Of a stretch of 64,000 bases of DNA, positions 7,041-53,261 are shown in pieces. A program made the position numbers and the translations under genes. The stretch comes from Thermococcus henrietii (GTDB taxonomy: Archaea; Methanobacteriota_B; Thermococci; Thermococcales; Thermococcaceae): positions 1,426,001-1,490,000 of the forward strand of contig NZ_LT900021.1 of the NCBI RefSeq assembly GCF_900198835.1, read 5' to 3'. Position 1 is the first letter of the stretch. Each line of letters begins with the position of its first letter. The notes under the pieces are model-generated. The model was not told the origin of the DNA. It saw only the letters and a program-made list of their open reading frames with translations, and did not search any database.

Positions 7041-7797
<757 letters not shown>

Positions 7798-10395: not shown

Positions 10396-10413
10396 ACCCT
10401 CACCCCCCGGACG

Positions 10414-10465
10414 CAGAACAGGCGTCATCAGGCCCGGCGGGCCGTTAGGGCGGACGCCATCGCCC
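10414..10465 (-). promoter_or_regulatory. Fluoride riboswitch (crcB motif)
   Basis: A 52-nt minus-strand element starts GGGCGATGG and keeps every helix of the fluoride aptamer. One pairing is GGGC with GCCC, closing a loop at the 5' end. The second is GGCGTC (from 10458) with GACGCC (to 10421), forming the pseudoknot-type architecture. The third is the hairpin GGCCC-GCC-GGGCC (10443-10431). It is followed by the conserved TGATG and ends CTG. As I remember it, the Thermotoga petrophila aptamer has the same length and layout but different paired bases, that is, compensatory changes. The element begins at the predicted TSS. Confidence 0.9.
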
Positions 10466-10487
10466 GAGCATTCACTCCCGGTGGTGA

Positions 10488-38379: not shown

Positions 38380-39863
38380 GGTATCACCCCGTAGAAGGTT
38401 ATCTCCTCGACAAGCGGGTAGGCGAAGTACGCTGAGACCAGCGTCAGGACGATGAGGGTCACGAGCGACGCGGTTATTATCGGGTGGGTGCTGACCTTTT
38501 CGACGTTGGGCCTGCCGAAGACGTTCTTCGTTATCCACTTGAGGCCGACCCAGAGGAAGACGGCCGAATCGGTTAGGACCATGACAATCGGGAGCCAGGC
38601 CAGGGCGGAAACCTTGACGAGGCTCAGGTTGGTTATCAGCTCGGCCTTGCTGAAGGCTATTCCCATCGGGGGAAGGCCCGCTAAACCGAGGAGCGCCACC
38701 GTCCACGCGAGGCCGTTCACGGGCAGGATTTCCCTGAGACCGCTTATCCGCCTCAGGTCGAGAGTTCCAAGGGAGTACGTGAAGGTTCCGGCGGTGAGAA
38801 AGGCCAGGCCCTTCACGAAGGCGTGAGTAGTCAGCTGGAACATCGCCGCTTTGAGGCCGATGTCAAAGCCCGGTGCCTTGCCCGTGAGGCCGAGGACGGC
38901 GTAAGTCAATCCGGAGAACATTATTCCGGCCTCGGCAACCGTTGAGTAAGCTAAAAGCCTCTTCGCGTCCTTCTGAACCGGGTAGTTGAGTATCGGAATG
39001 AGGAGCGTGAGGGAGACCATGACGGCCATGAAGTAGAAGACCCAGACCGGAAGGGGGCCGATGAACTGGATAACCCTCGCGACGAGGTAAACGCCCATCT
39101 CGACCATCGCCGCGCCGTGAAGGAAAGCGCTCGCGGGGGTTGGGGCCTCCATCGCGTCCGGAATCCAGGAGTAGGTCGGGAACTGGGCGCTCTTGGTGTA
39201 GCCCGCTATGAGTAAAGCAAGGAACAGCCAGGGCTTGACATCGGGCGAGACCTTCGAGAGCGAGAACAGACTCAAATCGTGGAGCTGGGTGAGGCCGATG
39301 TAGATGGCCGTGTAGAAGCCTATCATCGCCCCAACGTTCGGGATTATGAAGGCCTTGAAGCCAGCCCTCCTCGCTTCCCTGGTGTTGTAATAACTCACGA
39401 CACCCCAACAGGCAAGCCCCATCAGCTCGAAGAAGATGAGCAGGCCGAGAAAGGTTGAGGAGTATATGAATCCGAGTGTTGCCCCTTCAAAGAGCGTCAT
39501 CCAGGCGTAGAAGAGTCCCCTGCCCTTTCCTCCAGGGTGGCCGACGTTTCTCTCGCTCATGTACTCGACGCCATAGAACATGAAAATGAATCCCGCAACG
39601 GCAACAACAGTGCCTATCAAAACGCTCATGGGGTCGATTATAAGGCCATAAACCTCGCCGAACTGGGCGCTTTTAAGGTAGGTGATGTGAATAAGCTCCT
39701 CGTGGCCGAGGAGATAGAGGACCGCAACGCCGAGCTGAGTAATCATCGCCGATATGAAGGAGGCGAGCATTATAACGTCCGCTTTTCTCTCGTCGAGCCT
39801 GAAGAGGATTAGCCCACCGATGAGCGGGACTGTGAAGGTTAACGTTGCGAGAAGGCCTATCAT
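38376..39863 (-). CDS. Mrp subunit D-like antiporter, first gene of the operon
   Basis: 495-residue antiporter subunit starting MIGLLATLTFTVP. TM5 Glu (LIFFELMGLACWG), TM7 Lys (YTKSAQFPTYSWIPDAM), EAPTPASAFLHGAAMVEMG and KRLLAYSTVAEAGIM are canonical, as in NuoL/MrpA. ATG 39863 follows GGAGGGGGAACC. With the two others this gives three potential ion channels in one complex. No hydrogenase, formate dehydrogenase or CO dehydrogenase module accompanies the operon here. Confidence 0.92.
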   Translation of the reverse strand: MIGLLATLTFTVPLIGGLILFRLDERKADVIMLASFISAMITQLGVAVLYLLGHEELIHITYLKSAQFGEVYGLIIDPMSVLIGTVVAVAGFIFMFYGVEYMSERNVGHPGGKGRGLFYAWMTLFEGATLGFIYSSTFLGLLIFFELMGLACWGVVSYYNTREARRAGFKAFIIPNVGAMIGFYTAIYIGLTQLHDLSLFSLSKVSPDVKPWLFLALLIAGYTKSAQFPTYSWIPDAMEAPTPASAFLHGAAMVEMGVYLVARVIQFIGPLPVWVFYFMAVMVSLTLLIPILNYPVQKDAKRLLAYSTVAEAGIMFSGLTYAVLGLTGKAPGFDIGLKAAMFQLTTHAFVKGLAFLTAGTFTYSLGTLDLRRISGLREILPVNGLAWTVALLGLAGLPPMGIAFSKAELITNLSLVKVSALAWLPIVMVLTDSAVFLWVGLKWITKNVFGRPNVEKVSTHPIITASLVTLIVLTLVSAYFAYPLVEEITFYGVIP

Positions 39864-39894
39864 GGTTCCCCCTCCACGCCGGCCAAAATCCATT

Positions 39895-39920
39895 AGGTTT
39901 GTCTAACGAACCTTTTTAAA
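39895..39920 (-). promoter_or_regulatory. Promoter and palindrome of the Mrp operon
   Basis: Minus-strand TATA TTTAAAAA (39913-39920) with a 19-bp imperfect palindrome AGGTTTGTCTAACGAACCT (39895-39913) directly downstream, covering the interval up to the expected TSS near 39890. Seven of nine paired positions match. Position suggests a repressor site. Confidence 0.5.
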
Positions 39921-39981
39921 GTTTTTCGTTCTTTCCCGAAAGACATTTAGTCAAATGCTCATTTTCGTGAAATCCGATAGG

Positions 39982-40902
39982 TCATGGCACGACGGCGCTG
40001 ACCCTCTTAAAGACCCCCTCAAAATATTCCGAAACGAGGTTTACGACATTGCTTCCGTTGAAGGGCAAGTTCCCGACGAGCCCGAGCGCCTCCTTCACGT
40101 AACCCCTCGCCCTCGCAAGGGACTCCTCGAAAACGCCCGCCCTAACCATCTTCTCAAAGAGCTCGAGAAGGTCCTCCTCCCTTGGGTTCTTGAGGATTCT
40201 CTCGACGAGGGAGGAGCCGTAGCGCTCGGTGTAGAGAATCAGCGGGAGGGTCGTTTTTCCGTTGAGCAAATCCTTAAAGCGGTCCTTTCCCGTTCCCGGG
40301 AAGTAGTCGAGAACATCATCAACTATCTGAAACGCCCTTCCCACGAGCGTTCCGGCCCTATCGAGCTCCCCCCAGTAGGGCTTTCCGGCGTAGTAAGCGG
40401 GAAGCGCAAAGGAGGCACCGAAGAGCCGTCCGGTTTTCCCATCTATTATCCTGTAGTAGGTGTCGAGGTCAAGGTGGACGCTCCCCCGCACGGCCTCCTG
40501 GAGGATTTCGGCCTTGACCATGTCCTCGACGACCTTCGCAACGTAGTCCACCATCTCGACCTTCTTCCCCGCTATAATCCTCAGCGCGCGGACGAAGAGG
40601 AAATCACCGCTGAGGACGGCAAGCTCCGGCCCCCAGCGCATGACGACGGTCGGGTTGTTCCTCCTCTTTTCCGCCAAATCAATGACGTCGTCGTGAACCA
40701 GACTCGCGGTGTGGATTAGCTCTATCGCGGAGGCGAGGTCGAGGGCATCGCTTTCGTCGAGTCCAAGGCCCTCAGCAACTGCCAGGGTTATCCTCGGCCT
40801 TATCCTCTTTCCCCCGCTCCGGATTATGTACTCCCCGATTTTCTTGGCGAGCTCAACGCTCCCCTCAAGGGCTTCAATGAGCCTCTCGTCCAGCGATTCC
40901 AT
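39982..40902 (-). CDS. Polyprenyl diphosphate synthase, long-chain type
   Basis: Trans-prenyltransferase of 306 residues adding isopentenyl units to allylic diphosphates. Motifs: GGKRIRPRI, first Asp-rich motif HDDVIDLAEKRR, GDFLFVRAL and second Asp-rich motif FQIVDDVLDYF. The residues just before the first motif (IELIHTASLVHDD) have small side chains (Ala, Ser) where short-chain enzymes have bulky ones, suggesting a long product such as a quinone tail. This is the last gene of the sulfide:quinone oxidoreductase operon. ATG 40902 has GGGGGTG upstream. An archaeal lipid GGPP synthase role is the alternative. Confidence 0.87.
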   Translation of the reverse strand: MESLDERLIEALEGSVELAKKIGEYIIRSGGKRIRPRITLAVAEGLGLDESDALDLASAIELIHTASLVHDDVIDLAEKRRNNPTVVMRWGPELAVLSGDFLFVRALRIIAGKKVEMVDYVAKVVEDMVKAEILQEAVRGSVHLDLDTYYRIIDGKTGRLFGASFALPAYYAGKPYWGELDRAGTLVGRAFQIVDDVLDYFPGTGKDRFKDLLNGKTTLPLILYTERYGSSLVERILKNPREEDLLELFEKMVRAGVFEESLARARGYVKEALGLVGNLPFNGSNVVNLVSEYFEGVFKRVSAVVP

Positions 40903-41878
40903 CGATGACACCCCCGAGCCTGAGTCCCGCTCCAACTCCCAGAAGAACGAGCAACAGCGAAAGGCCAAGATACGAAAGCGACTCCATCACGAGCGCGAGG
41001 CCCTCAATCAGGGCAAAGAGAAGGAGGAACTTAACGTTGCGGAGCTTTGAGTACGTCCCGGCAGACAGCGCGTGGAAAGCGGTGAAGGCCAGCGCGAAGA
41101 GAAAGGCCCAGTAGGTCGGCCCCGTGAAGGAAACCGGCAGTTGCATTATGAAGTTCGTCGCCACGAAGGTGCCGATGGAGAGGAGGACGTACTGGCCGAT
41201 TCCGAGGCCGAGACCGAGGGAAAGACCGTCCCTGTTCCGGGAGAAGTAGAACTTGACTGCCTCGACAGTTATCGCGGTTGTAAAGGCCGTGAACAAGGCG
41301 CGCGCAACCGTTGAGTATGCCACGATGAGGGAGATTATCCCGTAGAATGGAATTATAACCGAGAGGCCGAGCGCAATTCCAGCGCCGAGGACGAGGTCCG
41401 GAATTGAGGGCTTCCTGATGAAGTAAAACGCCCCCAGAACGAGCAGGGAGCCGATAATCATCGCGACCATTCCGGCCGGGTTCGGCTTTGCCCTCACCCC
41501 GAGGCCGATTCCAACGAGCTCGCCGTTCTCATATGTTAGAGCGACCGGAAAGCTTCCCTTCTCCGCCTTGACCTCGTATTCCAGCTTCACCATGTCCCCT
41601 TCACGACTCTCGTTGACGAAGCTGAAGGACAGCAACTTTCCGTAGTTGGTCAGGGTGAACTCCCTGAGCTGGGCGAACTCTCTTTCCCCGAGTTCCTTCT
41701 TGAGCCTCTCGCTCATGTATGGCTCTATTAGGGAGTAGTTGCCGGTGTTCATTGCCTTTATGAAGCTCTCCATGAAAGCGTTTCCCTTCTCGGTGAACTC
41801 GTCGGCTGTAACCGGGGCACTGAGGAGCAGAAGCAGGGTTAAAGTTAAAGCGAGGGGCAGTGCCTTTCTCATCTTCAT
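40874..41878 (-). CDS. Membrane protein with signal peptide and DUF3887-like domain
   Basis: 334-residue protein: signal peptide (KALPLALTLTLLLLLSAPVTA), a soluble domain at about 27-120 resembling DUF3887 (FIKAMNTGNYSLIEPYMSER), then six or seven TM helices from residue 130, ending LGLSLLLVLLGVGAGLRLGG. The membrane part resembles YhfC-type families weakly. Function unknown. It lies in the island operon, three bases after the preceding gene, and overlaps the polyprenyl synthase gene by 29 bases. Confidence 0.75.
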   Translation of the reverse strand: MKMRKALPLALTLTLLLLLSAPVTADEFTEKGNAFMESFIKAMNTGNYSLIEPYMSERLKKELGEREFAQLREFTLTNYGKLLSFSFVNESREGDMVKLEYEVKAEKGSFPVALTYENGELVGIGLGVRAKPNPAGMVAMIIGSLLVLGAFYFIRKPSIPDLVLGAGIALGLSVIIPFYGIISLIVAYSTVARALFTAFTTAITVEAVKFYFSRNRDGLSLGLGLGIGQYVLLSIGTFVATNFIMQLPVSFTGPTYWAFLFALAFTAFHALSAGTYSKLRNVKFLLLFALIEGLALVMESLSYLGLSLLLVLLGVGAGLRLGGVIDGIAGREAH

Positions 41879-41881
41879 CCC

Positions 41882-42211
41882 TCACACCGCTGGGGCAAGG
41901 GCCCTAATGAGCTTTTTGGCCAGTCCCTCGATGCCGGGAATCCTGTAGGTTTCTCCCCTCAGCATCTTCCAGGCCCCGAAGAGGGCGTAGACGTACCAGA
42001 GGGCCAAGACGTAGAGCGACCAGCCGAACTCGGGGTAGCCGGGGTACATGTGCCAGGCTCCCATGAAGGCAATCCAGAAGAAAAACCCCACCACGCTGGA
42101 ATAAGCCGCGTGAGTCTTCGTTAGCTCGTCAGTATCTTTCATGAGGAGCAGGGGAATTCCCCCGACAAAGCCGAAGACGTAGGCTATGAAAGCGTCGCTA
42201 AGCCTTCCCAT
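41882..42211 (-). CDS. Small membrane protein of the respiratory island
   Basis: 109-residue protein with three TM helices (about 8-22, 38-56, 65-83); MYPGYPEFGWSLYVLALW is distinctive. Family not recognised, although it resembles the DUF4870-type small membrane proteins. Overlap of 14 bases with the ferrochelatase-like gene; SD AGGAGGTGGG. Confidence 0.75.
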   Translation of the reverse strand: MGRLSDAFIAYVFGFVGGIPLLLMKDTDELTKTHAAYSSVVGFFFWIAFMGAWHMYPGYPEFGWSLYVLALWYVYALFGAWKMLRGETYRIPGIEGLAKKLIRALAPAV

Positions 42212-43094
42212 CTTCCCACCTCCTAAGCTCCTGGACTATCGCCGAGATGAGGTAATCGTGCCTGTGGTCGAGCTTCGCCCGGTAAAACCTAAGCCCGAGC
42301 TTTTCAGCAAATTCCCGGTATTCAACGTCGAGCTCGTAAAGCGTCTCGACGTTCTCAACGAGGAAGCTGAGCGGGTAAACCAGAACCTCCTCAACGCCCT
42401 CCTCCCTGAGCCTTTCCAGGACTTCCGGAACCTCCGGCCCGAGCCAGTCACCTCTGCCGAACCTGCTCTGGAAGGCCATCTCCCACTCGAGGTCAAAGGC
42501 CTTCATGACCCTCTTCGCCAGCTCGGTGTGACTTTTCAGGTAGGGGTCGCCCCTCTCGATGACCTTCCTTGGCAGGCTGTGGACGCTTAGAACAACGTAG
42601 GGGTTCTCAAAACCGCTCTCAGCTAAGCCCTTCTCGATGTTGTGCCTGACCCAGGCGATGAACCTTTCGTTGCCCCACCACTCCCTGATGTAGGGCCTCT
42701 CGCCGAAGAGCTCCCTGACCTTGAGCAGGCACCTTTCAGTCGTCGAGCTGGAGTAAACGTGGTAGAGCGGAAAGACGAGGTCGAAGCCGTCGCTCAGCTC
42801 CTCGAGGAGGGGTTTAGAATAGCACATGCCGAGCGCTATTTCGTGACCAGTTCTCTCGCTCACCAGCCCGGCTATCTCACGCATGTAATCCACGAGGGGA
42901 CTTTTCCCGCCCATAACCGCGTAGTGGCCCCTAACTGCCCGGGCGCGGGCCTTGGCTATGCCCCGGATTATCGCCTTTGCCCCGGGCACGTCGAGGCCTA
43001 TATCCTTTCTCACGTCGTAGAGAAAGCAGAATATGAAGTCCTCAACTTCGTCGGGCGTCGTCGGCGCTCCCATGTAGGTGAAGAGAACCCTCAA
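42198..43094 (-). CDS. hemH: Ferrochelatase family protein
   Basis: 298-residue HemH-like chelatase, which inserts ferrous iron into a porphyrin. Clear blocks: VLSVHSLPRKVIERGDPY (catalytic His), FQSRFGRGDWLGPEVPE with the motif before the catalytic Glu region, and VLVYPLSFLVENVETLYELD (Glu of the metal site). N-terminal LFTYMGAPTTPDEVEDF equals the family's YGxPxxxEDVxPF. Start: TTG at 43094 with GGAGGTGAAACC directly upstream. It likely provides protohaem or Fe-coproporphyrin for CydAB, since no other haem protein is visible nearby. Confidence 0.88.
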   Translation of the reverse strand: MRVLFTYMGAPTTPDEVEDFIFCFLYDVRKDIGLDVPGAKAIIRGIAKARARAVRGHYAVMGGKSPLVDYMREIAGLVSERTGHEIALGMCYSKPLLEELSDGFDLVFPLYHVYSSSTTERCLLKVRELFGERPYIREWWGNERFIAWVRHNIEKGLAESGFENPYVVLSVHSLPRKVIERGDPYLKSHTELAKRVMKAFDLEWEMAFQSRFGRGDWLGPEVPEVLERLREEGVEEVLVYPLSFLVENVETLYELDVEYREFAEKLGLRFYRAKLDHRHDYLISAIVQELRRWEDGKA

Positions 43095-43123
43095 GGTTTC
43101 ACCTCCAAAAGAAAATGAAATGG

Positions 43124-43543
43124 TCACTTCTCATTTAAAACCGCGCCGAGGTTCTTTGCGAGGGTCAGGAGGAATCCAAGTCCCTTCTGAACGTCCTCGT
43201 CGCGGAGGTAGCCAATCGCTCCCGTCGTTCCGACCTTCGGAACCTCCTTGGGGTTGGTCTCTGCGAGGGCCTTGAGCAACGCTTTGACGAGTTCCTCCGT
43301 GTTCCAGCTGAGCTTTCTGACGTCCTCAACCTCAAGCTCCCTGACCGGTTCGAGGGCAGAATTCCCTATCGCGGTGAGCCTCAGGACGACCTTCTCCTCG
43401 GCTATGGTCTCAAGGAGCTTGTCCCCGTTCTCGGTCATGGCCTTGAGGATTCCAAGGGTTCCGCTCTTCTTCAAAGCCACGGCAACCTCAACCAGCTCCT
43501 TAACGGCGGAAATCTCTTCGGGGGTGAACTTGAGCTCGCTCAT
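43124..43543 (-). CDS. DUF1641 family protein
   Basis: 139-residue soluble, helical DUF1641 protein (PEEISAVKELVEVAVALKKSG; VGTTGAIGYLRDEDVQKGLGFLL). The family is commonly found next to sulfide:quinone oxidoreductase or formate dehydrogenase genes; function unknown. The ATG at 43543 follows GAGGTGAGG. Located between the flavoprotein and the chelatase gene, consistent with the pairing. Confidence 0.87.
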   Translation of the reverse strand: MSELKFTPEEISAVKELVEVAVALKKSGTLGILKAMTENGDKLLETIAEEKVVLRLTAIGNSALEPVRELEVEDVRKLSWNTEELVKALLKALAETNPKEVPKVGTTGAIGYLRDEDVQKGLGFLLTLAKNLGAVLNEK

Positions 43544-43553
43544 CTTCCTCACC

Positions 43554-44702
43554 TCACAGCCTCAAACTGTCGAGCCAGCCCCTGTAGAAGGAGTCCTTCA
43601 TCATCCTGACCAGCGGGCTCTTGAAGAGAAGGTAGCACTCGCGCCTGTACTTGCTTCCGGTCCACTCGTACTCACAGTTGCCGATGAAACCGGTGTTGTA
43701 GCCGTGGCCGACGCACATCGTCGGGGCGTACTCTGCAACCGGGAACCCGCCGTGTATCTGGTGGAGTATGCTCGTCGCGGAAACTATCGAGGCGTTGTGG
43801 AGCGGAACGCCGGCCGTTAAGAGTCCAAGCGGTGGCATGCTTGCTTCGCTGACGACGTAGACCTCATCGTAGCCGGGGTAGCGGAAGTCCGGTCCCTTGA
43901 CCTTGGCCCAGCGCGGGTCCTTCTCGTCGGCCATGAAGGCCATGACGTCGGGAATCGCTATGGGCGGAACCTTGATGAGGAGGTCGTACTCAACCTCGGC
44001 GTTCTTGGTGATGACCTTGTTCGGTGTTATCTCAACGTGCCCCTCGTTCCTGATGAAGTTCACCCTGGCCTTCTCCATCTCCCTCCTGAAGAACCTGACG
44101 AGGTCCGGGCCGAGTCCGATGGCCGGCTCCTTGTCCGGGTGAACGACGGTAATCTCGACGTCGTCAATTCCGCGGTGCTCGAAGTACATCCTGAGGTTGA
44201 GGCCCATCTCGTATGGATAGATGCCACAGCGGTGAGGGGCCTCGGGGGTGTAGATGACTATTCTCTTCCCCTTGAACTCATAGAGGGCCTTTCTCAGCTC
44301 AAGGGCCCCTTCAAGGGTGAAGTTGTGGTAGCCGTGCTCGGCCAGTCCCTTGTACTTGTCCCAGACGTACTTGACGCCGAGGCCAAGGACGAGGTAATCG
44401 TAGTCGTAAACCTTTCCCCCCTCTGTCTTTACCTGTCTGTTATCGAGGTCAATCTCGGTAACCCTATCGATGTCAACCTTGAAGCCGTAGACCTTCTCGG
44501 CGTTCTTTATCGGCGCCCACGTCTCGTGCCCCTCGGCGGAACCGAGCGCGACCTCCATGAAGAGCGGTGGCATGTAGTGCCTCTCGCTCGCGGTCACCAT
44601 CGTCACGTCAACGTCAAGCTTGAGTCTGTCCGCTTCCGCCTTCAGATAGCGCGCCGCCACGAGACCGGCGGTACCTCCTCCGAGGACCAGAACCTTCGCC
44701 AT
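43554..44702 (-). CDS. Sulfide:quinone oxidoreductase-like flavoprotein
   Basis: 382-residue FAD protein of the SQR/NDH-2 family. FAD-binding VLVLGGGTAGLVAARYL, LVLGLGV, and Cys159 (PHRCGIYPYE) and Cys330 (APTMCVGHGY), positions that match the redox-active cysteine pair of SQRs; further cysteines at 343 and 356. A short amphipathic C-terminus (PLVRMMKDSFYRGWLDSL) fits membrane docking. It should pass electrons from sulfide or polysulfide to quinone. First gene of the minus arm; SD GGAGGTG, TATA at 44746. Alternative: an NADH dehydrogenase or other quinone reductase. Confidence 0.83.
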   Translation of the reverse strand: MAKVLVLGGGTAGLVAARYLKAEADRLKLDVDVTMVTASERHYMPPLFMEVALGSAEGHETWAPIKNAEKVYGFKVDIDRVTEIDLDNRQVKTEGGKVYDYDYLVLGLGVKYVWDKYKGLAEHGYHNFTLEGALELRKALYEFKGKRIVIYTPEAPHRCGIYPYEMGLNLRMYFEHRGIDDVEITVVHPDKEPAIGLGPDLVRFFRREMEKARVNFIRNEGHVEITPNKVITKNAEVEYDLLIKVPPIAIPDVMAFMADEKDPRWAKVKGPDFRYPGYDEVYVVSEASMPPLGLLTAGVPLHNASIVSATSILHQIHGGFPVAEYAPTMCVGHGYNTGFIGNCEYEWTGSKYRRECYLLFKSPLVRMMKDSFYRGWLDSLRL

Positions 44703-44744
44703 GCGTGCACCTCCAGGTCTTCTACCAATTGGAGTGAGGTTTTG

Positions 44745-44812
44745 GGGTATATAACCCTTTTGATTATCGCACCTATTAGGTTCGGAAAAAGACTCGTCCG
44801 AAAGAGATATAA
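44745..44812. promoter_or_regulatory. Divergent promoters of the respiratory island
   Basis: The minus-strand promoter has GTTATATACC (44746-44756, inside the partly palindromic GGGTATATAACCC), giving a TSS near 44722 for the SQR-like operon. The plus-strand promoter has GATATAAG (44805-44812) for the small membrane protein. Between them lie GTTCGGAAAAAGAC and GTCCGAAAGAGAT, a loose direct repeat that could be a shared operator. Confidence 0.6.
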
Positions 44813-44846
44813 GACCGAAGTTCCGAATTCGAAAGGAGGTGGTGTC

Positions 44847-45050
44847 ATGGCAGTACAGGCGGAGACTGGTAAGGAGGTCCTTGCCGGATTGGTGGCAATA
44901 GTGCTCGCATTTGTCTTTGTACTGATTGCGTTCTTGATGCACAACGTTGTCTGGGTAGTGCCAGGTATGGTCTTTGGAATAGCCTATATGATTTGGGTTT
45001 TCCACCGACACGGCATGCCTTCAGTCAACAGTCCGAAAGCAAAAGTTTAA
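44847..45050 (+). CDS. 67-residue membrane protein ahead of cydA
   Basis: Small protein (MAVQAETGKEVLAGLVAIVL) with two hydrophobic stretches, at about 12-32 and 36-51, and a basic tail HRHGMPSVNSPKAKV. AAAGGAGGTGGTGTC gives a strong ribosome-binding site just before the ATG. It lies between the divergent promoter and cydA. It might be an accessory subunit of the bd oxidase, comparable in role to CydX, although it is longer than that and I see no sequence match. Confidence 0.75.
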   Translation: MAVQAETGKEVLAGLVAIVLAFVFVLIAFLMHNVVWVVPGMVFGIAYMIWVFHRHGMPSVNSPKAKV

Positions 45051-45111
45051 TTCTTTCTTTTATGTTCTCGCTTAAAGGAAAACATTACTTTAATTAGATG
45101 CTCCGAAAACA

Positions 45112-45153
45112 TTATAAGTTTGTTTCCCGGTAAGTTCAGTTTGAAGGATGAAC
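45112..45153 (+). promoter_or_regulatory. cydAB promoter with inverted repeat
   Basis: TATA TTATAAG at 45112-45118 with a BRE-like CCGAAAAC before it. An inverted repeat GTTCA-N10-TGAAC at 45134-45153 spans the predicted TSS (about 45140). After it come AAGGGGTGG and the ATG at 45170. Confidence 0.55.
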
Positions 45154-45169
45154 TAAGGGGTGGTTCGCT

Positions 45170-46693
45170 ATGGACCCGGTACTGCTGTCGAGAATACAGT
45201 TCGCCCTGACCGCGGGTTACCACTGGATTTTCGTGCCCGCGAGCATAGGAATGGCCTTCATGGTCTTCCTGCTCTGGACCATGGCGGCTATAACCAACGA
45301 GGAGCAGTGGCACAAGGCGGCGAAGTTCTTCAGCAAGTGGCTTGGGGTTTTCTTCGTCCTCGGTGTCCCAACGGGAATAGTCATGGAGTTCGAGTTCGGA
45401 GCAAACTGGGCCAACTACTCGGTCTTCGTCGGCTCAATATTCGGTCCTCCACTGATGCTTGAGGGTCTCTTCGCCTTCGCCCTCGAGTCGACGTTCCTCG
45501 GCGTGCTTCTTTTTGGTATGGACAGGCTCCCGAGGGCCATAACCTGGATTTCGTCGTTCTTCGTGTTCATCGGTTCGAGCCTCTCCGGCCTGTGGATTCT
45601 CATCGCCAACAGCTGGCAACAGACACCGACAGCCTACATCATCAAGGACACGCCCCTCGGCCCCAGGGCCGAGCTGACCGACTTCATGAAGGCCGTCTTT
45701 AACCCGCTCTTGGTCAGCCAGTACACCCACACAATAAATTCCGCAATCCTCACCGGTGCCTACATAGTCGTCGCGGTCAGCGCCTACTACCTGCTCAAGA
45801 AGAGGCACGTCCAGGTCGCGAGGAGCGCGCTCGCCCTCGGCATAGTCGTTCTCGCAATAAGCTCGGTAATCCAGCTCTACCCGACCGGCCACGAGGAGGG
45901 TATGGTCATAGCCAAGTACCAGCCGACGAAGCTCGCCGCCGACGAGGGCCTCTTCCACACAGAGAAGGGTGCGCCGATGGTGGTCTTCGGAATCGTTGAC
46001 GAGAAGAACCAGCAGGTCAAGTACGCCATCGAGATTCCCAAACTGCTGAGCTGGCTTGCCTTCGGTGACTGGAACGCGCAGGTGCTCGGCCTCCACGACG
46101 CGGCCAAGTACGTCTGGTACGAGCAGGTTCTCAACAACCCCAACTACGAGAACGAGCAGGTCAAGAAGCAGGTCATAGACAGCCTCATGCAGGCATATGG
46201 AATCGACCCCAACGACCCGCAGGCCAACGAGAAGATGGTCAAGGTCCTTGAGGACGCCCTGCCGGTGGCGTTCATGTTCTACGCCTACCGCGTCATGGTC
46301 GGCCTTGGAACGCTCTTCATAGCCATCGGAGGTATTGGAGTGCTCCTCCTCCTGCTCGGCAAGCTCTACGACGCCCGCTGGTTCCTCAAGGTGCTCGTCG
46401 TTACCGTCCCGCTTCCGTGGCTCGCGGGCGAGGCCGGCTGGTTCACCCACGAGGTCGGCAGAATGCCGTGGATGGTCTGGGGAATGGTAACAACTAACAC
46501 TGGAATCTCGCCAAACGTTTCAGCAACAAGCGTGCTGATTACGCTGATAGCGTTCGTCGTCGTGTACAGCATACTGTTCTACATCTGGCTCCACTTCGTC
46601 AGGAAGCTCATCAGAGAAGGTCCCGAGCCCGTTGAGGGCGACGTCACCGCGAAGCCGGTCCCCGCCGTTAGCACCGCGGGAGGTGGTCAGTGA
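45170..46693 (+). CDS. cydA: Cytochrome bd quinol oxidase subunit I
   Basis: 507-residue catalytic subunit of the bd-type terminal oxidase. Haem ligands are in place: His18 (high-spin b595/d), His187 and Met376 (b558); Glu99 and the second Glu in FALESTF belong to the proton channel. The quinol-binding Q-loop has QPTKLAADEGLFHTE (Lys254, Glu259), close to the E. coli long-loop form, and the family's GRQPW is GRMPW. It reduces O2 to water with quinol as donor. This is notable for a Thermococcales genome. TATA at 45112. Confidence 0.95.
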   Translation: MDPVLLSRIQFALTAGYHWIFVPASIGMAFMVFLLWTMAAITNEEQWHKAAKFFSKWLGVFFVLGVPTGIVMEFEFGANWANYSVFVGSIFGPPLMLEGLFAFALESTFLGVLLFGMDRLPRAITWISSFFVFIGSSLSGLWILIANSWQQTPTAYIIKDTPLGPRAELTDFMKAVFNPLLVSQYTHTINSAILTGAYIVVAVSAYYLLKKRHVQVARSALALGIVVLAISSVIQLYPTGHEEGMVIAKYQPTKLAADEGLFHTEKGAPMVVFGIVDEKNQQVKYAIEIPKLLSWLAFGDWNAQVLGLHDAAKYVWYEQVLNNPNYENEQVKKQVIDSLMQAYGIDPNDPQANEKMVKVLEDALPVAFMFYAYRVMVGLGTLFIAIGGIGVLLLLLGKLYDARWFLKVLVVTVPLPWLAGEAGWFTHEVGRMPWMVWGMVTTNTGISPNVSATSVLITLIAFVVVYSILFYIWLHFVRKLIREGPEPVEGDVTAKPVPAVSTAGGGQ

Positions 46694-47688
46694 TGGACTA
46701 CGCGACTGCCTGGTTTTACTTTTCCGCCTTCCTCCTTGGAATGTACTTAGCGTTTGACGGCTTCGACCTTGGAATAGGAACGCTCCTCGCCTTCATTAAG
46801 AACCAGAGGGACAGGGACGTCCTCGTTAACACCATCGCGCCGGTCTGGGACGGCAACGAAGTCTGGTTCATCACCTGGGGTGCAGGGCTCTTCGCGATGT
46901 GGCCGGCGCTCTACGCGACGCTCTTCAGCACGTTCTACCTCGCGGTCTGGTTGCTCGCGTTCCTGTTCATATTCCGCGCCGTCGGCTTTGAGTTCAGGAA
47001 CAAGAACAAGGACCTCTGGGACAAGCTCTTCGCCCTCGTCAGCGCGTTAATCCCGCTCGTCATTGGCGTCATAGTCGGCAACCTCGTCATGGGAATCCCC
47101 ATCGACGCCAAGGGCTTCCACGGCTCACTGCTGACGCTCTTCAGGCCGTACCCGCTCATAGTTGGCCTCTTCGTGCTCTTCGCCGTGACCTGGCACGGGG
47201 CCAACTGGGGCGCCTACAAGACCACAGGAAAGCTCCAGGAGACCATGAGAAAGTACGCCTTCACATTCTGGGTGCTTACAGTGGTCTTCCTGCTCCTGAC
47301 GGTAATCGGCATGAAAATCTGGGCCCCGCTGAGGTTCGAGAGGCTCATGACCCCACTCGGACTCTTCCTGACGGTCGTAATCCTCGTCGCGGGACTGCTC
47401 GACGGCTACCTCATCAAGAAGGGCGTCGACAAGCTGGCATTCTACATCAGCTGGCTGGCCTTCCCGCTGGTCGTCGGGTTAATCTACTACACGATGTACC
47501 CCTACTGGGTCATCTCGACCACCGACCCGAACTTCAAGCTCAGCATACACGACCTCGCAGCGTCGCCACTGACGCTCCAGGCGGTCCTTGGAGTCTCAGT
47601 AATCCTGGCGGTAATCATCATGACCTACACCCTCTACGTCTACAAGATGTTCGGCGGGAAGGTCACCGAGGCAGAGGGCTACTATTAG
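46693..47688 (+). CDS. cydB: Cytochrome bd quinol oxidase subunit II
   Basis: 331-residue subunit II with about eight or nine TM helices. Conserved GFDLGIGTLLAF at residue 20 and DGNEVWFITWGAGLFAMWP are diagnostic, as is TWHGANWGAYKTTG. ATG at 46693 shares one base with the cydA stop. No cydDC-type transporter for assembly is seen in the window. Confidence 0.95.
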   Translation: MDYATAWFYFSAFLLGMYLAFDGFDLGIGTLLAFIKNQRDRDVLVNTIAPVWDGNEVWFITWGAGLFAMWPALYATLFSTFYLAVWLLAFLFIFRAVGFEFRNKNKDLWDKLFALVSALIPLVIGVIVGNLVMGIPIDAKGFHGSLLTLFRPYPLIVGLFVLFAVTWHGANWGAYKTTGKLQETMRKYAFTFWVLTVVFLLLTVIGMKIWAPLRFERLMTPLGLFLTVVILVAGLLDGYLIKKGVDKLAFYISWLAFPLVVGLIYYTMYPYWVISTTDPNFKLSIHDLAASPLTLQAVLGVSVILAVIIMTYTLYVYKMFGGKVTEAEGYY

Positions 47689-47739: not shown

Positions 47740-47784
47740 TCGTTACAGCAAAGTTCTTTTTGGAAACTAAAGACGGTGGTCGAA

Positions 47785-48987
47785 ATGCACAGAGGCAAAT
47801 CTACCGGCTGGCCCTACGACCGGAAGCCGGTCCTCGTCTTCTGGGAGACGACGAAGGCCTGCCAACTCAAGTGCAAGCACTGCAGAGCGGAGGCGATACT
47901 CCAGGCACTGCCGGGCGAGCTGAGCACCAAGGAAGGAAAGGCCCTCATCGATTCCCTCACCGACTTCGGAAGGCCCTACCCGATACTCATTCTCACCGGT
48001 GGCGACCCGCTCATGAGGAAGGACATCTTCGAGCTCATCGAGTACGCCGTTGAGAAGGGCGTAAGGGTGGGCCTCGCCCCTGCCGTGACACCTCTCCTGA
48101 CCGAGGAAACAATCGAGAGAATCGCGGAGAGCGGGGTTAAGGCCGTCAGTATAAGCCTCGACAGCCCATTTCCAGATGTCCACGACGCAATCAGGGGCAT
48201 AGAAGGGACGTGGGAGAAAACCGTCTGGGCCATCAAGGAGTTCCTGAAACACGGCCTAAGCGTTCAGGTGAACACGGTTGTGATGCGCGAGACCGTTGAG
48301 GGCTTGCCCGAGATGGTGAAGCTCCTCAAAGACCTCGGCGTCGAAATCTGGGAGGTCTTCTACCTCGTTCCGACCGGGAGAGGCAACTTCGAGAGCGACC
48401 TAAGGCCGGAGGAGTGGGAGGACGTCACGCACTTCCTCTACGAGGCCTCGAAGCACCTCCTCGTGAGGACCACCGAGGGTCCGATGTTCAGGCGAGTGGC
48501 AATAATGAGGAAAGCCCTTGAGGAGAAGGGACTCGACCCCGACGAGGTTCTTAAGCCAGGGAAACTCTACTTCCGGCTGAAGAAAAGGCTCGTTGAGCTT
48601 CTCGGCAAAGGTGAAGAGGCGAGGGCGCAGACGATGGGGACGCGCGACGGGAAGGGAATCGTTTTCATCGCCTACAACGGCAACGTCTACCCGAGCGGTT
48701 TCCTGCCCTTCAGCGTCGGCAACGTCCGCGAGAAAAGTTTGGTCGAGATTTACAGGGAGGGCGAGCTGATGAAAAAGCTCCGCTCGGCCGAGTTCGAGGG
48801 GCGGTGTGGAAAGTGTGAGTTCAGGGAAATCTGCGGGGGAAGCAGGGCGAGGGCCTACGCCTATAGCTTAAACCCTCTCGCCGAAGACCCGGCCTGTCCG
48901 TACGAGCCCGGCTCATACCTCAGGCTCGCCGGCGAACTCGGGCTGAACCTTCCAATCAGAACCTTTGGAGGGCAAAAGCCGATTTGA
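47785..48987 (+). CDS. Radical SAM/SPASM protein, AhbD-like
   Basis: 400-residue radical SAM protein with the 4Fe-4S motif CQLKCKHC (Cys26, Cys30, Cys33), TGGDPLMRKDIFELI and a C-terminal SPASM-type cysteine set CGKCEFREICGGSRARAYA with DPACPYEP. It resembles AhbD, which converts Fe-coproporphyrin III to haem in the alternative pathway, and the related TIGR04053-type group. The neighbouring bd oxidase and ferrochelatase-like gene support a haem role. Start ATG 47785, preceded by GGTGGT. An alternative is modification of another peptide or cofactor. Confidence 0.85.
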   Translation: MHRGKSTGWPYDRKPVLVFWETTKACQLKCKHCRAEAILQALPGELSTKEGKALIDSLTDFGRPYPILILTGGDPLMRKDIFELIEYAVEKGVRVGLAPAVTPLLTEETIERIAESGVKAVSISLDSPFPDVHDAIRGIEGTWEKTVWAIKEFLKHGLSVQVNTVVMRETVEGLPEMVKLLKDLGVEIWEVFYLVPTGRGNFESDLRPEEWEDVTHFLYEASKHLLVRTTEGPMFRRVAIMRKALEEKGLDPDEVLKPGKLYFRLKKRLVELLGKGEEARAQTMGTRDGKGIVFIAYNGNVYPSGFLPFSVGNVREKSLVEIYREGELMKKLRSAEFEGRCGKCEFREICGGSRARAYAYSLNPLAEDPACPYEPGSYLRLAGELGLNLPIRTFGGQKPI

Positions 48988-48997
48988 GGTGGTGAAG

Positions 48998-50053
48998 ATG
49001 AGGTGGAGCGGTCTAATCCTGTCGGTCGTTCTTCTCCTCGCGGTCGTTTCGGCCGGTTGCGTGGGCAACTCAACCGGAACCTCAAGCAAAGTAATGAACG
49101 AGGTAACCGTGAAGGACTTCTCGGGAAGGAACGTTACTGTCAAAGTTCCGGTTCAGCGGGCGGTCGTTCTCTCGACTTCCGCCCTCGAAATAATCCAGCT
49201 CCTCAACGCGAGCGACCAGGTCGTCGGTATTCCAAAGGAAGCCCAGTACGACGCCCTGCTGGGCGAAAGCCTGAAGAACAAGACCGTCGTCGGCGCGAGG
49301 CTCAAGATTGACGACTGGGAGAAGGTTTTAGCCCTAAAGCCCGACCTAATCATCGACCTCGACCTGAAGAAGTTCTACAACGTTGACGAGCTCCTCAACC
49401 GCTCCGCCAGCTACGGAATACCCGTCATCCTGCTGAGAGAGGACAAACTTGAGGACATACCCAGAGCCGTTTCACTCCTCGGCGAGCTCTTCGGAAGGGA
49501 GAAAGAGGCCAGAGCCTTCGACGACTACTTCAACGAGCAGGTGAAGGGAGTTCGGGCCATAGCCTCAAAGATTCCAGCGGAGAAGAGGAAAAAGGTGGTA
49601 ATGATACAGCCGATAATGGGCAAGCTCTACATCGTCAACGGCAACGACGTCCTTGCTCAGGCAGTCAGGCTCGTTGGGGCGGACTACCTCGTGAACCTGA
49701 CCTTCAACGGTTACACACCGGTTAGGGTCCCGATGGACAGGGAGAAGATAATCGCGAGCTACCGCGACGCCGACGTCGTAATCCTCCTGACGAGCGCCGT
49801 AACGCCTTACGACCAGGTCGAGAAGCTCCGGGAGGAGATGCTCAGCGACGAGGCCTGGAGGGGCATAAAAGCTGTAAAAGAGGGCAACGTCGTAATCCTC
49901 AGGGCGGACATGGGTAAGGACTCCTTCCTCCGCTGGAGCCCGCGCTTGGCGGTGGGAATCTGGGTCATCGGCAAGGCAATCTACCCGGACTACTATCCAG
50001 ACTGGAACGAAAAAGCTAAGGAATTCCTGAAGAGGTTCTACGGCCTCTCCTGA
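48998..50053 (+). CDS. ABC transporter substrate-binding lipoprotein, FecB/BtuF family
   Basis: 351-residue extracellular lipoprotein (lipobox SAGC, Cys21) of the iron/haem/cobalamin (cluster A-II) type: RAVVLSTSALEIIQLLNASDQVVGI, KPDLIIDLDL and RWSPRLAVGIWVIGKAIYP. It binds the substrate of the ABC importer whose permease and ATPase lie downstream. SD GAGGTGGTGAAG. Confidence 0.87.
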   Translation: MRWSGLILSVVLLLAVVSAGCVGNSTGTSSKVMNEVTVKDFSGRNVTVKVPVQRAVVLSTSALEIIQLLNASDQVVGIPKEAQYDALLGESLKNKTVVGARLKIDDWEKVLALKPDLIIDLDLKKFYNVDELLNRSASYGIPVILLREDKLEDIPRAVSLLGELFGREKEARAFDDYFNEQVKGVRAIASKIPAEKRKKVVMIQPIMGKLYIVNGNDVLAQAVRLVGADYLVNLTFNGYTPVRVPMDREKIIASYRDADVVILLTSAVTPYDQVEKLREEMLSDEAWRGIKAVKEGNVVILRADMGKDSFLRWSPRLAVGIWVIGKAIYPDYYPDWNEKAKEFLKRFYGLS

Positions 50054-50074: not shown

Positions 50075-50944
50075 ATGATAGCGGTCTTTCCAGCGAGTCT
50101 CGCGGAAATCGTTAAACTCGTCGGGAAAGTCGGGGAGATAGTCGGGGTGAACGAGGAAATTAGGCTCGACCCCTGCCTGCCGGAGCTGAAGGATAAGCCT
50201 GTCATCGGGAAGTACCTCAAGCGGAGCAAAAAGACCTACTGGGACGTTCTGGAGGAGCTTAGGCCGGACCTTATCCTCGACTTCGAGGTTGAGAACCTGC
50301 ATTCCGGGGACGAGTTGAGGGCCTTTGGGGAGCGTATGGGCGCGAGGGTCGAGCTGATTGACTTTGAAACAGTCGAGGGACTGGTCGAGGCGAGCAGGAG
50401 GATAGCCGAGCTAACGAGGGGCGACTTTTCAAAGCTTGGCGGGTTCTATGAGAGGCACCTGACGAGGCTGGGCGAGATAACTGAAGCCATCGAGGAGAGG
50501 CCCAAAGTCCTGCTCACCTACCGGAACTTCAACGTCGTAACGAGGACCAACGTTCTGAGCGACGCGGTTAGAAAAGCCGGGGCGATGAACCTCGGCGAGA
50601 GGATACGGACAAGGCGGAAGGTCTATCCGGTAAAAAAGGAGCGCTTCTTCAGGGCCTTCGGCGATGCGGAGCACCTCTTCCTGCTCACGAGCATAATGAC
50701 GGACAGGGAGAAGATGGAAGAGATAAGGGACGAAATCCTCGACTCGGCCGAGTGGAGGGCAATCGAAGCCGTTCAGCTCGGAAACGTGCACATAGTCGGC
50801 TCGGCCCTCGACCTTGAGAGCTTCATGCGCTGGAGTCCCCGCATAATTCCCGGAATCTACCAGCTCGGGAGATTTGTTCATGGAAGGGCCTTTCCGAAGT
50901 GGGAACGGGTCGCAAAGGAACTCTACTCGCTCTGCGGTGTTTGA
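50075..50944 (+). CDS. BtuF/FecB-like substrate-binding protein without signal peptide
   Basis: 289-residue protein with the same fold and motifs as the upstream lipoprotein (VFPASLAEIVKLVGKVGEIVGV, LRPDLILDFEVEN, RWSPRIIPGIYQLGRFVHG) but no signal peptide or lipobox: it starts directly at the first beta strand. SD GGGGTGG before ATG 50075. A cytosolic binding protein could receive the imported porphyrin, haem or corrinoid and deliver it to HemH or the radical SAM enzyme (inference). Alternatively it is a secreted protein whose N-terminus was lost. Confidence 0.8.
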   Translation: MIAVFPASLAEIVKLVGKVGEIVGVNEEIRLDPCLPELKDKPVIGKYLKRSKKTYWDVLEELRPDLILDFEVENLHSGDELRAFGERMGARVELIDFETVEGLVEASRRIAELTRGDFSKLGGFYERHLTRLGEITEAIEERPKVLLTYRNFNVVTRTNVLSDAVRKAGAMNLGERIRTRRKVYPVKKERFFRAFGDAEHLFLLTSIMTDREKMEEIRDEILDSAEWRAIEAVQLGNVHIVGSALDLESFMRWSPRIIPGIYQLGRFVHGRAFPKWERVAKELYSLCGV

Positions 50945-50945
50945 G

Positions 50946-51884
50946 ATGAAGAAAGAACTGACTCTGGTAATCCTTCCGGTGGTGGCGGTGCTCCTCGGGG
51001 TCTTCGTGGGTAGCTACCCGACCAACCCGCTCCACCTTGATGGATTAGCCAGGGCTGTAATATGGGAAATCAGGCTTCCGAGAACTCTTATGGGGGTCTC
51101 GGCAGGAATGGCCCTGAGCCTGGGCGGAATGACCCTTCAGGCGGTTTTCAGAAACCCGCTCGTCGATACCTACATTCTGGGCGTGGCATCGGGAGTGGCC
51201 TTCGGCGCGGCACTGGCCGTCGCTTTTCTTCCCTTCGTCGGCCTCGCACCGCTCGCGCTCCTCTTCGGCCTCTTGGCGGTTTTCTTGGCCTATTACCTTG
51301 CACGCGTCAACGGCAAAGTTTCTACCGTCTCGCTAATCCTTGGCGGAATAATAGTCACTGCCCTTTTCTCCGCCCTGCTTTACCTCCTCGAACTGCTCCT
51401 CCCGAGCGAGAGCTTATCCGGTTTAGTCATCTGGCTGATGGGAAGCTTGGCGAACTCAACGTGGAAGATGGTGGTTTATTCCCTACCCGGAGTCGTCCTC
51501 ATAGCCGTGCTCCTCTATCTCCTCCGCTGGAACCTGAACGCCATGAGCCTCGGCGACGAGGCGGAAATCCTCGGCCTGAACGTCTCCCTCTGGAGAGGGA
51601 TTTTCGTGTTCCTGTCGGCCCTCCTAACGGCCCTCGTGATTTCCTTCACGGGCATAATTGGCTGGGTAGGGCTGATAGTCCCTCACACGGCGAGAATGCT
51701 CGTCGGGCCCGAGCACTCGAAGCTAATCCCCGCAACAATCTCGATTGGAATAACCGTCATGGTCCTGGCGGATGTGATAGTCCGCCTTCTCCCGGGGGAC
51801 ATCCCAGTAGGGATAATAACGACCCTCGTGGGTGTTCCATTCTTCGCGTATCTCCTCAGAAAAACCGGAGGTGGTTGGAGTTGA
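50946..51884 (+). CDS. ABC transporter permease, FecCD family
   Basis: 312-residue permease with about nine or ten TM helices. RLPRTLMGVSAGMALSLGG, TLQAVFRNPLVDTYILG and FTGIIGWVGLIVPHTARML are characteristic of the iron/haem/B12 permeases. One base separates it from the preceding stop. Confidence 0.93.
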   Translation: MKKELTLVILPVVAVLLGVFVGSYPTNPLHLDGLARAVIWEIRLPRTLMGVSAGMALSLGGMTLQAVFRNPLVDTYILGVASGVAFGAALAVAFLPFVGLAPLALLFGLLAVFLAYYLARVNGKVSTVSLILGGIIVTALFSALLYLLELLLPSESLSGLVIWLMGSLANSTWKMVVYSLPGVVLIAVLLYLLRWNLNAMSLGDEAEILGLNVSLWRGIFVFLSALLTALVISFTGIIGWVGLIVPHTARMLVGPEHSKLIPATISIGITVMVLADVIVRLLPGDIPVGIITTLVGVPFFAYLLRKTGGGWS

Positions 51885-52504
51885 GGATTCTCATCGTTTA
51901 CACGACCCGCTACGGAACGACCGAAAGGGCCGTAAAATTGGCTAAGAAGCTCTTCGAGGAGGAAGGCCACGAAGTGGAAGTCAGGGAGGTTAATGAGAAC
52001 CCCTCGCCGAGGGGCTACGATTTGGTCGTCATGAGTGCACCCGTTTACCGCGACGGCCCCCACTGGGATTTGACGGACTGGATAAGCGAGCACCGGGAGG
52101 AGCTTGAAGACGTTCCAAAGGTGTTCTTTCTGGTGGCGATGCATTTGGCAGGCTCGGTCTTCATGGGGAAGCTCCACGGGGGGATAGCCTACTCCCAGCC
52201 ACTGATAGAGGCCTTTGAGGTTCCGCCCTTCTACGGAACGCTCATCGGGGGCGAGGTTGACGTTGAAAGGCTCAGTGACGAGGACAGGAGGAAGATGAGG
52301 AGGTTTTATGCCGTTTTGGGAGAGAAACTCGAAAGCAAGAGCCTTTACAGGGAGGAGGACGTTAAGGCATTCGTGAGGAGGACTCTATTGTATTACGACT
52401 GGTTCGGGAAGCACTTCAGGCGGGGCGAGGTCGATAAGGCTAAAGACTTCGACTTCATGGAGAAGGTAAGGGAGATGGAGGCAAAGCTCGATGCTGAGGG
52501 CTGA
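51881..52504 (+). CDS. Flavodoxin-domain protein, HemG-like
   Basis: 207-residue flavodoxin with the FMN loop YTTRYGTTERAVK and VMSAPVYRDGPHWD. Start TTG 51881 lies after GGAGGTG and overlaps the permease stop. Related long-chain flavodoxins include menaquinone-dependent protoporphyrinogen dehydrogenase HemG; by position within a haem-linked operon that function is plausible but unproven. The C-terminal FGKHFRRGEVDKAKDF resembles that of HemG-family members. Confidence 0.8.
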   Translation: MRILIVYTTRYGTTERAVKLAKKLFEEEGHEVEVREVNENPSPRGYDLVVMSAPVYRDGPHWDLTDWISEHREELEDVPKVFFLVAMHLAGSVFMGKLHGGIAYSQPLIEAFEVPPFYGTLIGGEVDVERLSDEDRRKMRRFYAVLGEKLESKSLYREEDVKAFVRRTLLYYDWFGKHFRRGEVDKAKDFDFMEKVREMEAKLDAEG

Positions 52505-53261
52505 AAACCTCTCGTACTCCTACGGGGACTTTGGAATCGAGGGGGTTGGCCTGGAGGTTGAGACGGGTGAGTTCGTCGCCCTAATCGGGCCGAACGGCGC
52601 GGGAAAGAGCACGCTCCTGAGGTTAATCTACGGCCTGTTGAGGCCCGAGAAGGGGCGCGTCTTCGCCGACGGAAGGGACGTTCTAAGGCTGTCTCCCAGG
52701 GAAAGGGCGAAACTGCTCGGCTACGTTCCCCAGAACCACGTCCCGACATTTCCCTTCAGGGTTCTCGACTTCGTCCTCCTCGGGGCAACCCCCGAACTCG
52801 GGGCCTTCGGCTCGCCCGGGAGGGAGCACAGGGAAAGGGCTGAAAGGTTGCTCAAACACTTCGGCCTCGATGCCTATCGGCAAAAGCCCTACACCGCCCT
52901 GAGCGGGGGACAGAAAAGGCTTCTCCTCCTCGCGAGGGCGATGATGACGTCGCCGAAATACCTCCTCCTCGACGAGCCGACGAGCGAGCTCGACCTCAAG
53001 AACGCCCTCCTCGTCCTCGGGACCGTTAAGAGGCTCGCGAGAGATGGGGTGGGTGTTCTGGCGGTTCTCCACGACCCCAACTTAGCCTACCTTTTCGCCG
53101 ACAGAGTCATCCTAATGAGGAACGGAAGGATAGTGGCTGAAGGAAAGCCCTCGGAGGTCCTGTCGGAGGAGCTTTTGAGCGGGCTTTACGGGGTTAAGCT
53201 TAAGGTGATGGAGTGCAACGGGGAAAGGGTTTTGAGGGTTCTCCCGGAGGTGCTTCCATGA
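52491..53261 (+). CDS. ABC transporter ATP-binding protein, FecE/BtuD type
   Basis: 256-residue ATPase of the importer: Walker A GPNGAGKS (LIGPNGAGKSTLL), Q-loop VPQNHVPTFP, signature ALSGGQKRLLLLARA, Walker B LLLDEPTSELD and switch His in VLHDPNLAY. Overlaps the flavodoxin gene by 14 bases. It completes the importer with the FecCD-type permease and the binding lipoprotein. Confidence 0.93.
   Translation: MLRAENLSYSYGDFGIEGVGLEVETGEFVALIGPNGAGKSTLLRLIYGLLRPEKGRVFADGRDVLRLSPRERAKLLGYVPQNHVPTFPFRVLDFVLLGATPELGAFGSPGREHRERAERLLKHFGLDAYRQKPYTALSGGQKRLLLLARAMMTSPKYLLLDEPTSELDLKNALLVLGTVKRLARDGVGVLAVLHDPNLAYLFADRVILMRNGRIVAEGKPSEVLSEELLSGLYGVKLKVMECNGERVLRVLPEVLP

Follow-up and report, generated by a model that had tools for sequence, protein, structure and literature searches.

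Members of the heat-loving genus Thermococcus are generally described as strict anaerobes that live by fermentation. The closest described relative of the locus treated here is the cytochrome bd region of T. gammatolerans, in which cydAB (tg1232-1233) was reported in 2009 to lie near ubiE, ubiD and ubiA; the accessible portion of that paper proposes oxygen protection and horizontal gain for the region (PMC2718504). A 2012 study likewise regards this cydAB clade as laterally acquired and, in its accessible portion, lists sulfide:quinone oxidoreductase (SQR) only for Thermoplasmatales and Sulfolobales (PMC3512248). In the accessible portion of a 2010 survey of heme genes, the row for T. gammatolerans is without hem genes and hemH is named only in three Thermoplasmatales (PMC3004389), and the accessible part of a Palaeococcus paper notes only a UbiE-type methyltransferase there (PMC6981617). 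Here we analyse a 64 kb stretch of the single-contig, 2.16 Mb genome of T. henrietii (the window; all coordinates are positions within it), in which two operons diverge from a shared intergenic region: a six-gene minus-strand operon, which begins with an SQR-like flavoprotein and ends with a polyprenyl diphosphate synthase (PPS), and a plus-strand operon with cytochrome bd and cofactor genes. Together they form a conserved module of 21 genes. The T. gammatolerans cydAB-ubiADE region has the same gene order as locus L058 of genome G019, which is likely T. gammatolerans itself. Unlike the window module, the G019 locus is without the block from the radical S-adenosylmethionine (SAM) gene to the first ATPase gene. 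The 2009 paper, as far as its accessible text goes, leaves the SQR operon, PPS, ferrochelatase, the missing early ring genes and the importers unmentioned, and the word heme is absent (PMC2718504). Searches of an open-licence library, to which subscription papers mostly do not belong, turned up no description of a Thermococcus operon combining SQR, HemH and PPS.

The module as a whole probably serves a single electron transfer route from sulfide to oxygen, equipped with its own enzymes for finishing quinone and heme. In this proposed scheme, PPS would extend a short allylic diphosphate, supplied by the lipid geranylgeranyl or farnesyl diphosphate (GGPP or FPP) synthase, into a tail, which UbiA of the plus operon would join to a ring of the naphthoate type. 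The action of UbiD and UbiE would then yield menaquinone or a close relative, and this quinone would link the SQR-like flavoprotein to cytochrome bd as electron carrier. The genes of the minus operon, in the order of reading (44702 to 39982), are as follows.

43554-44702, minus strand: SQR-like flavoprotein, first gene of the operon (best PDB matches are SQRs, E 3e-18)
43124-43543, minus strand: DUF1641 protein (PF07849, 48 bits, over cut-off; translation run from 43537)
42198-43094, minus strand: ferrochelatase HemH, with a TTG start (TIGR00109, 166 bits, cut-off 124.6)
41882-42211, minus strand: small membrane protein resembling two-transmembrane (2TM) and DUF4870 proteins (PF13239 and PF09685, each below cut-off)
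40874-41878, minus strand: membrane protein with a DUF3887-like/NTF2-like N-terminus and about seven C-terminal helices (PF13026, 27 bits, below the cut-off of 31.8)
39982-40902, minus strand: PPS, a trans-polyprenyl diphosphate synthase of probable long-chain type, last gene of the operon (PF00348, 182 bits, cut-off 27)

An earlier, sequence-only reading of this DNA had described six minus-strand genes that overlap or are separated by at most 30 bases. This is correct for the window, where the successive spacings are 10, 29, -14, 3 and -29 bases, but it does not extend to all relatives, as the HemH-2TM gap is 55, 55 and 61 bases in 3 of 18 loci. The relatives' loci were read as 20 stretches and then 7 more, and the six-gene order is identical in all 18 Thermococcus genomes in which the genes can be read together; a 19th genome with the module, G066, stands outside this count because its locus is broken by contig ends. 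In all 18, PPS starts directly at the end of the preceding membrane-protein gene or inside it (spacing 0 to -38). PPS is also under purifying selection: dN/dS is 0.07-0.15 in 16/17 comparisons against the window gene, a set in which dS is saturated in one comparison and above 1 in several others.

PPS is recognised as a trans-polyprenyl diphosphate synthase by PF00348 and by both Asp-rich motifs, of which the first is DDVID, preceded by Ala at -5 and Ser at -4, and the second is DDVLD. The sequence-only reading had likened the small residues before the first motif (IHTASLVHDD) to those of long-chain quinone-tail enzymes. They are indeed present, and Ala -5/Ser -4 recur in 18/18 aligned orthologues (an alignment that includes a scarred copy from genome G020 and leaves out two fragments and the G049 and G067 copies). 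That reading also supposed a separate lipid synthase, and the genome does hold two PF00348 genes: the other one (locus L001, near position 749293 of the genome contig) reads EFIHNYSLVHDDIMD, with Tyr at -5, as in the lipid enzymes. The same Tyr is found in 9/9 GGPP-type synthases extracted from the loci fetched (L001 and eight others), a set beyond which there are many further family matches. According to the accessible text of PMC9385802, archaeal type I GGPP synthases have a bulky aromatic residue at -5, type II enzymes have small -5/-4 residues plus an insertion in the Asp motif, and type III enzymes have small residues plus a His two positions before G(Q/E).

It is quite improbable that PPS is instead a second short-chain synthase, making GGPP or a C25 product for membrane lipids. 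The N-terminal 140 residues alone are nearest, by a small margin, to an archaeal GGPP synthase (P. horikoshii, 6e-23; E. coli octaprenyl synthase, 1e-22), and small -5/-4 residues are shared with type II and type III GGPP synthases (PMC9385802, accessible part). However, PPS lacks all three short-chain blocks: there is no aromatic residue at -5, its first Asp motif contains no insertion, and Val takes the place of the type III His in 18/18. Furthermore, the lipid-type synthase is separate and widespread, whereas full-length PPS occurs in only 20 of the 94 family genomes, either with the module or as a scar. Over its full length, PPS is closest in the PDB to long-chain enzymes (4lob, 7e-37; 3oyr, 1e-36; E. 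coli octaprenyl synthase, 2e-36 and 3e-36), with the P. horikoshii GGPP synthase at 4e-31; among the 20 top-ranked entries of the fold search, no title names a GGPP or FPP synthase, and the P. horikoshii enzyme follows at rank 21. PPS resembles the IspB-type octaprenyl/decaprenyl synthases in fold, in both Asp motifs and in the small -5/-4 residues, and differs from them in overall sequence (identity of 25-31% in the 20 top fold alignments) and in the usual Gly of G(Q/E). At this place (PPS residues 131-135; window 40512-40498), Ala is found in 17/18 Thermococcus orthologues and Gly only in G019.

Thus, the sequence-only view of PPS as a long-chain type enzyme agrees with its nearest relatives by full-length sequence and by fold, and the assignment is very probable. 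The product would most likely be a long quinone tail, with a predicted chain above C25. For comparison, most archaeal menaquinones have 4-8 prenyl units, the tails being shorter at high temperature (PMC6770870, accessible part), and in a T. maritima enzyme the floor residue is Phe-132 (PMC7839719, accessible part). Several observations, among them the N-terminal comparison given above, weigh against this view. None of the NCBIfam chain-length-specific models, long or short, exceeds its cut-off on PPS (best HepT, 148 against 457). The fold model is uneven, with a mean predicted local distance difference test (pLDDT) score of 76.7 (41-60 in the other four models), and residues 1-31 and 72-96, the latter with the first Asp motif, score below 50.

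The first gene of the operon is the proposed point of entry of electrons. Its product aligns with SQRs of the mitochondrial kind over residues 3-345, whereas matches to type II NADH dehydrogenase (NDH-2) structures are weaker and cover only about the first 140 residues. Four cysteines (Cys159, 330, 343 and 356) are invariant in 14/14 aligned sequences, and two of these, Cys159 and Cys330, align with cysteines of the mitochondrial SQR chains, which we take to be the redox pair. The flavoprotein thus combines the FAD-binding fold with the cysteine pair expected of an SQR, and sulfide is the likely electron donor. It is unlikely that the flavoprotein is another kind of quinone reductase, fed by a donor other than sulfide. 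Such a view might draw on the NCBIfam SQR model NF049943, which gives 116 bits, far below the cut-off of 525 and thus a point against an SQR, and on the Pyr_redox_2 domain, which is common to many enzymes; yet the nearest solved relatives over most of the chain are SQRs, and the conserved cysteines include the aligned pair.

The intergenic region contains two conserved blocks.

44747-44765, minus strand: BRE/TATA-like block of the minus operon (core AATCRAAA..GTTAWATAC in 16/16 aligned loci)
44799-44816, plus strand: TATA-like block of the divergent plus operon (CTTATAT, that is ATATAAG on the plus strand, in 15/16 aligned loci, the exception being L057)

The first has the expected look of an archaeal B recognition element (BRE) followed by a TATA box, and its 19-base pattern has one match in the window at up to three mismatches, where 0.01 is expected. 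The 120 bases upstream of PPS, which lie inside the preceding gene, show no common promoter block by eye in the 16 aligned loci, so the internal promoter that would have separated PPS from the operon of the sequence-only reading is not seen as a conserved element. The block before the SQR-like gene and the lack of one before PPS support, without proving, a single transcript of the minus operon. A scan for sigma-70 promoters and terminators (39800-45200) gave 3 promoter-like and 5 terminator-like hits against 1.6 and 5.6 in shuffled sequence; being uninformative for an archaeon, it was not used. Between the divergent promoters lies an inverted repeat, TTCGGA...TCCGAA (44781-44802), possibly a shared operator; it is retained in L053, L056 and L058 but degenerate in other loci.

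The divergent plus operon provides the proposed terminal oxidase and the late cofactor steps.

44847-45050, plus strand: 67-residue hydrophobic protein upstream of cydA, conserved in synteny (47-100% identity); a candidate accessory small oxidase subunit
45170-46693, plus strand: CydA, cytochrome bd oxidase subunit I (PF01654, 494 bits)
46690-47688, plus strand: CydB, cytochrome bd oxidase subunit II (TIGR00203, 180 bits, cut-off 117.3)
47776-48987, plus strand: radical SAM/SPASM protein TIGR04053 (522 bits, cut-off 395; next the AhbD heme b synthase model, 306, below 500)
48998-50053, plus strand: substrate-binding protein of BtuF/IsdE type (PF01497, 88 bits; IsdE model 52, below 299)
50075-50944, plus strand: second, diverged BtuF/IsdE-type binding protein (PF01497, 25.6 bits, below the cut-off of 27.5)
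50946-51881, plus strand: permease of BtuC/FecCD type (best NCBIfam model BtuC, 212 bits, below 461)
51878-52504, plus strand: flavodoxin-domain protein, weakly HemG-like (PF12724, 54 bits on a longer open reading frame; NF008316, 28, below 142)
52491-53261, plus strand: ATP-binding cassette (ABC) ATPase of BtuCD/heme importer type (heme ABC ATPase model 217 bits, below 261)
53258-54715, plus strand: UbiD-family decarboxylase, nearest to an MqnL-type model (TIGR00148, 407, cut-off 244.9; TIGR03701, 416, below 495.9)
54705-55601, plus strand: UbiA-family prenyltransferase, the proposed acceptor of the tail (NF009609, 414, and TIGR01475, 262, both over cut-off; MqnP models below)
55602-56567, plus strand: binding lipoprotein of NMT1/SsuA type, a candidate binder of a ring precursor (PF09084, 54 bits; TIGR01728, 80, below 163.5)
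56570-57298, plus strand: ABC permease (PF00528, 31.6 bits)
57277-57906, plus strand: ABC ATPase (PF00005, 89.5 bits)
57887-58576, plus strand: UbiE/MenG methyltransferase (NF001244, 222, and TIGR01934, 221, both over cut-off)

CydA and CydB together identify a cytochrome bd oxidase. The open reading frame 51062-52504 was rejected as a single gene, as reading in three frames resolves it into the BtuC-type permease and the flavodoxin-domain gene. UbiD needs UbiX, which is over cut-off in 60 of the 61 genus genomes, and the T. henrietii genome has two UbiA-family genes, one of them inside the module. The ring that these enzymes would act on is likely of the menaquinone type.

The late steps of quinone and heme formation are thus present, each set beside an ABC importer, and the early enzymes searched for were not found; these searches covered MqnA/MqnD, MenD and 5-aminolevulinate dehydratase (ALAD), other early enzymes not being searched one by one. 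The MqnA/MqnD family (PF02621) is found in 0/94 genomes (4/14 controls positive), ALAD (PF00490) in 0/94 (11/14 controls positive) and MenD over cut-off in 0/61 genus genomes (7/14 controls over cut-off), with weaker MenD matches in 2/61, including 78.6 bits in the T. henrietii genome against a cut-off of 244.2. The sequence-only reading had assigned the quinone tail and SQR to the minus operon, and the ring and the oxidase to the plus operon. The first part stands, in that a tail-type synthase is found where proposed, whereas ring supply by the plus operon is not established, because this operon holds only late ring steps together with importers. Heme supply also appears split across both operons, since ferrochelatase lies in the minus operon; HemH has the HSLP and VETLYELD blocks in common with human ferrochelatase.

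The absence of the tested early ring and porphyrin enzymes, combined with the adjacent importers, suggests salvage of imported rings. We tentatively propose, at somewhat less than even odds, that both cofactor rings are imported, leaving the cell only to complete them. The NMT1-type ABC importer would bring in a naphthoate acid, either 1,4-dihydroxy-6-naphthoate or a similar compound, and the BtuFCD-like one a porphyrin; the quinone would be finished by the PPS tail, prenylation, decarboxylation and methylation, and heme by iron insertion through HemH, perhaps with trimming of side chains by the radical SAM protein. A competing possibility, itself plausible without reaching the probable, is de novo synthesis of the ring by enzymes that escaped recognition. 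Non-orthologous replacements are known in quinone pathways (PMC4746308, accessible part), and hidden homologues of early ring enzymes could be overlooked; on the other side stand the null results for MqnA/MqnD and MenD, and the NMT1-type importer, which lies between UbiA and UbiE in every locus covering that stretch.

The BtuFCD-like importer could carry cobalamin instead of a porphyrin; its homologues are found in most hem-less archaea (PMC3004389, accessible part). The CydB-UbiD stretch of G019 (L058, between 10163 and 10281) is without the radical SAM gene, binding proteins, permease, flavodoxin gene and ATPase, and HemH is kept, which argues against the indispensability of these genes. TIGR04053 is over cut-off in 15/61 genomes, all with cydA, and is in pieces in G065 and G067, a contig break in the latter leaving 33 residues of the radical SAM protein.

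The distribution of PPS follows that of the module. CydA is found in 18 of the 94 family genomes, all 18 within the genus, and HemH in 19/61 genus genomes, that is, the 18 with cydA plus G066, a draft whose SQR operon sits on another contig, one of 3.3 kb. The 20 genomes with full-length PPS orthologues all belong to the genus (20/61; 76-93% identity in 19 relatives), and two more have fragments. PPS and HemH co-occur in 19 of 61 genomes, with one genome having PPS only, none HemH only and 41 neither (Fisher 7e-15; the two with PPS fragments are counted among the 41); against the force of this figure, the two genes are physically linked and the genomes related, so the counts are not independent. 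Some match to PPS is found in 86/94 family genomes, nearly all of which include one of 34-46% identity. A search of 115 genomes of the phylum at E 1e-20 returned no PPS orthologue outside the genus: 22 Thermococcus genomes have PPS or fragments, the other matches are of the GGPP-synthase class plus one 31% match in G113, and 10 genomes are without a match. A contig scan with PPS as single query, which reaches close relatives only, gave three loci, all in Thermococcus metagenome-assembled genomes.

Losses also connect PPS with the rest of the module. In G020 (L072, 9034-10626), an epimerase-like gene is fused in frame to PPS in an open frame of 552 residues; the first 12 PPS residues are replaced and D211, which is Asp in the other 17 aligned, is Gly. 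In G027, a remnant of the importer ATPase is joined to PPS from about residue 129, with UbiE still open, and in the draft G062 a remnant of UbiE runs into pieces of PPS that begin near residue 80 and lie in two frames. These three block deletions have different ends, with one edge in PPS and the other in UbiE, the ATPase or the epimerase, and thus fit a module dispensable as one whole; block loss has occurred in at least three lineages. The dN/dS of G020 PPS over its whole length is 0.145 against the window gene and is not raised, so decay, if any, would be recent. It is very improbable that the long chain is destined for apolar polyisoprenoids, a glycosyl carrier or some other product instead of a quinone. 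Thermococcales are listed as makers of long apolar polyisoprenoids (PMC6770870, accessible part), but 41/61 genus genomes have neither HemH nor a full-length PPS, and deletion of the module is accompanied by decay of PPS.

Some further features of the window deserve mention. For the membrane protein at 40874-41878, whose model (mean pLDDT 71.7) is helical from residue 134 onward, a fold-based name was rejected, as the best Foldseek E value is 5e-3, mostly to NTF2-like or designed curved-sheet domains. Elsewhere, a fluoride riboswitch (10412-10473, minus strand, above the Rfam gathering score) lies upstream of minus-strand genes, and a short membrane open reading frame (7426-7797) is CrcB-like by look only.

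A module that combines an SQR-like enzyme, a bd oxidase and its own tail synthase, and in which neither ring nor porphyrin synthesis is recognised, would account for the way in which Thermococcus at vents copes with or uses oxygen where it meets sulfide, be it by respiration or by scavenging. If salvage of the rings is true, sulfide-to-oxygen electron flow in the Thermococcus that carry the module would depend on neighbours, and the locus would point to an archaeal quinone-ring importer. Cross-feeding of the quinone ring would be directly testable, as a stretch of 20 kb holds the candidate importer together with the tail synthase and the finishing enzymes.

Among known pathways, the late steps of the futalosine (Mqn) pathway (MqnP, MqnL and MqnG) offer the nearest comparison, since the module likewise has UbiA, UbiD and UbiE homologues close together. 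These reach the cut-offs of broad family models but not those specific for MqnL and MqnP, and the module differs from the futalosine pathway in that MqnA/MqnD were not found in the 94 genomes and the late genes are interrupted by those of an ABC importer. A second parallel is the 2016 hypothesis of menaquinone-precursor exchange among gut bacteria with Men genes, for which, in the accessible part of the paper, importers were yet to be annotated (PMC4746308). The Thermococcus module is alike in that late steps are kept, early ones are missing and uptake of a soluble precursor is proposed; compared with the gut bacteria of that account, the organism here is an archaeon, and its late genes themselves enclose those of a candidate importer.

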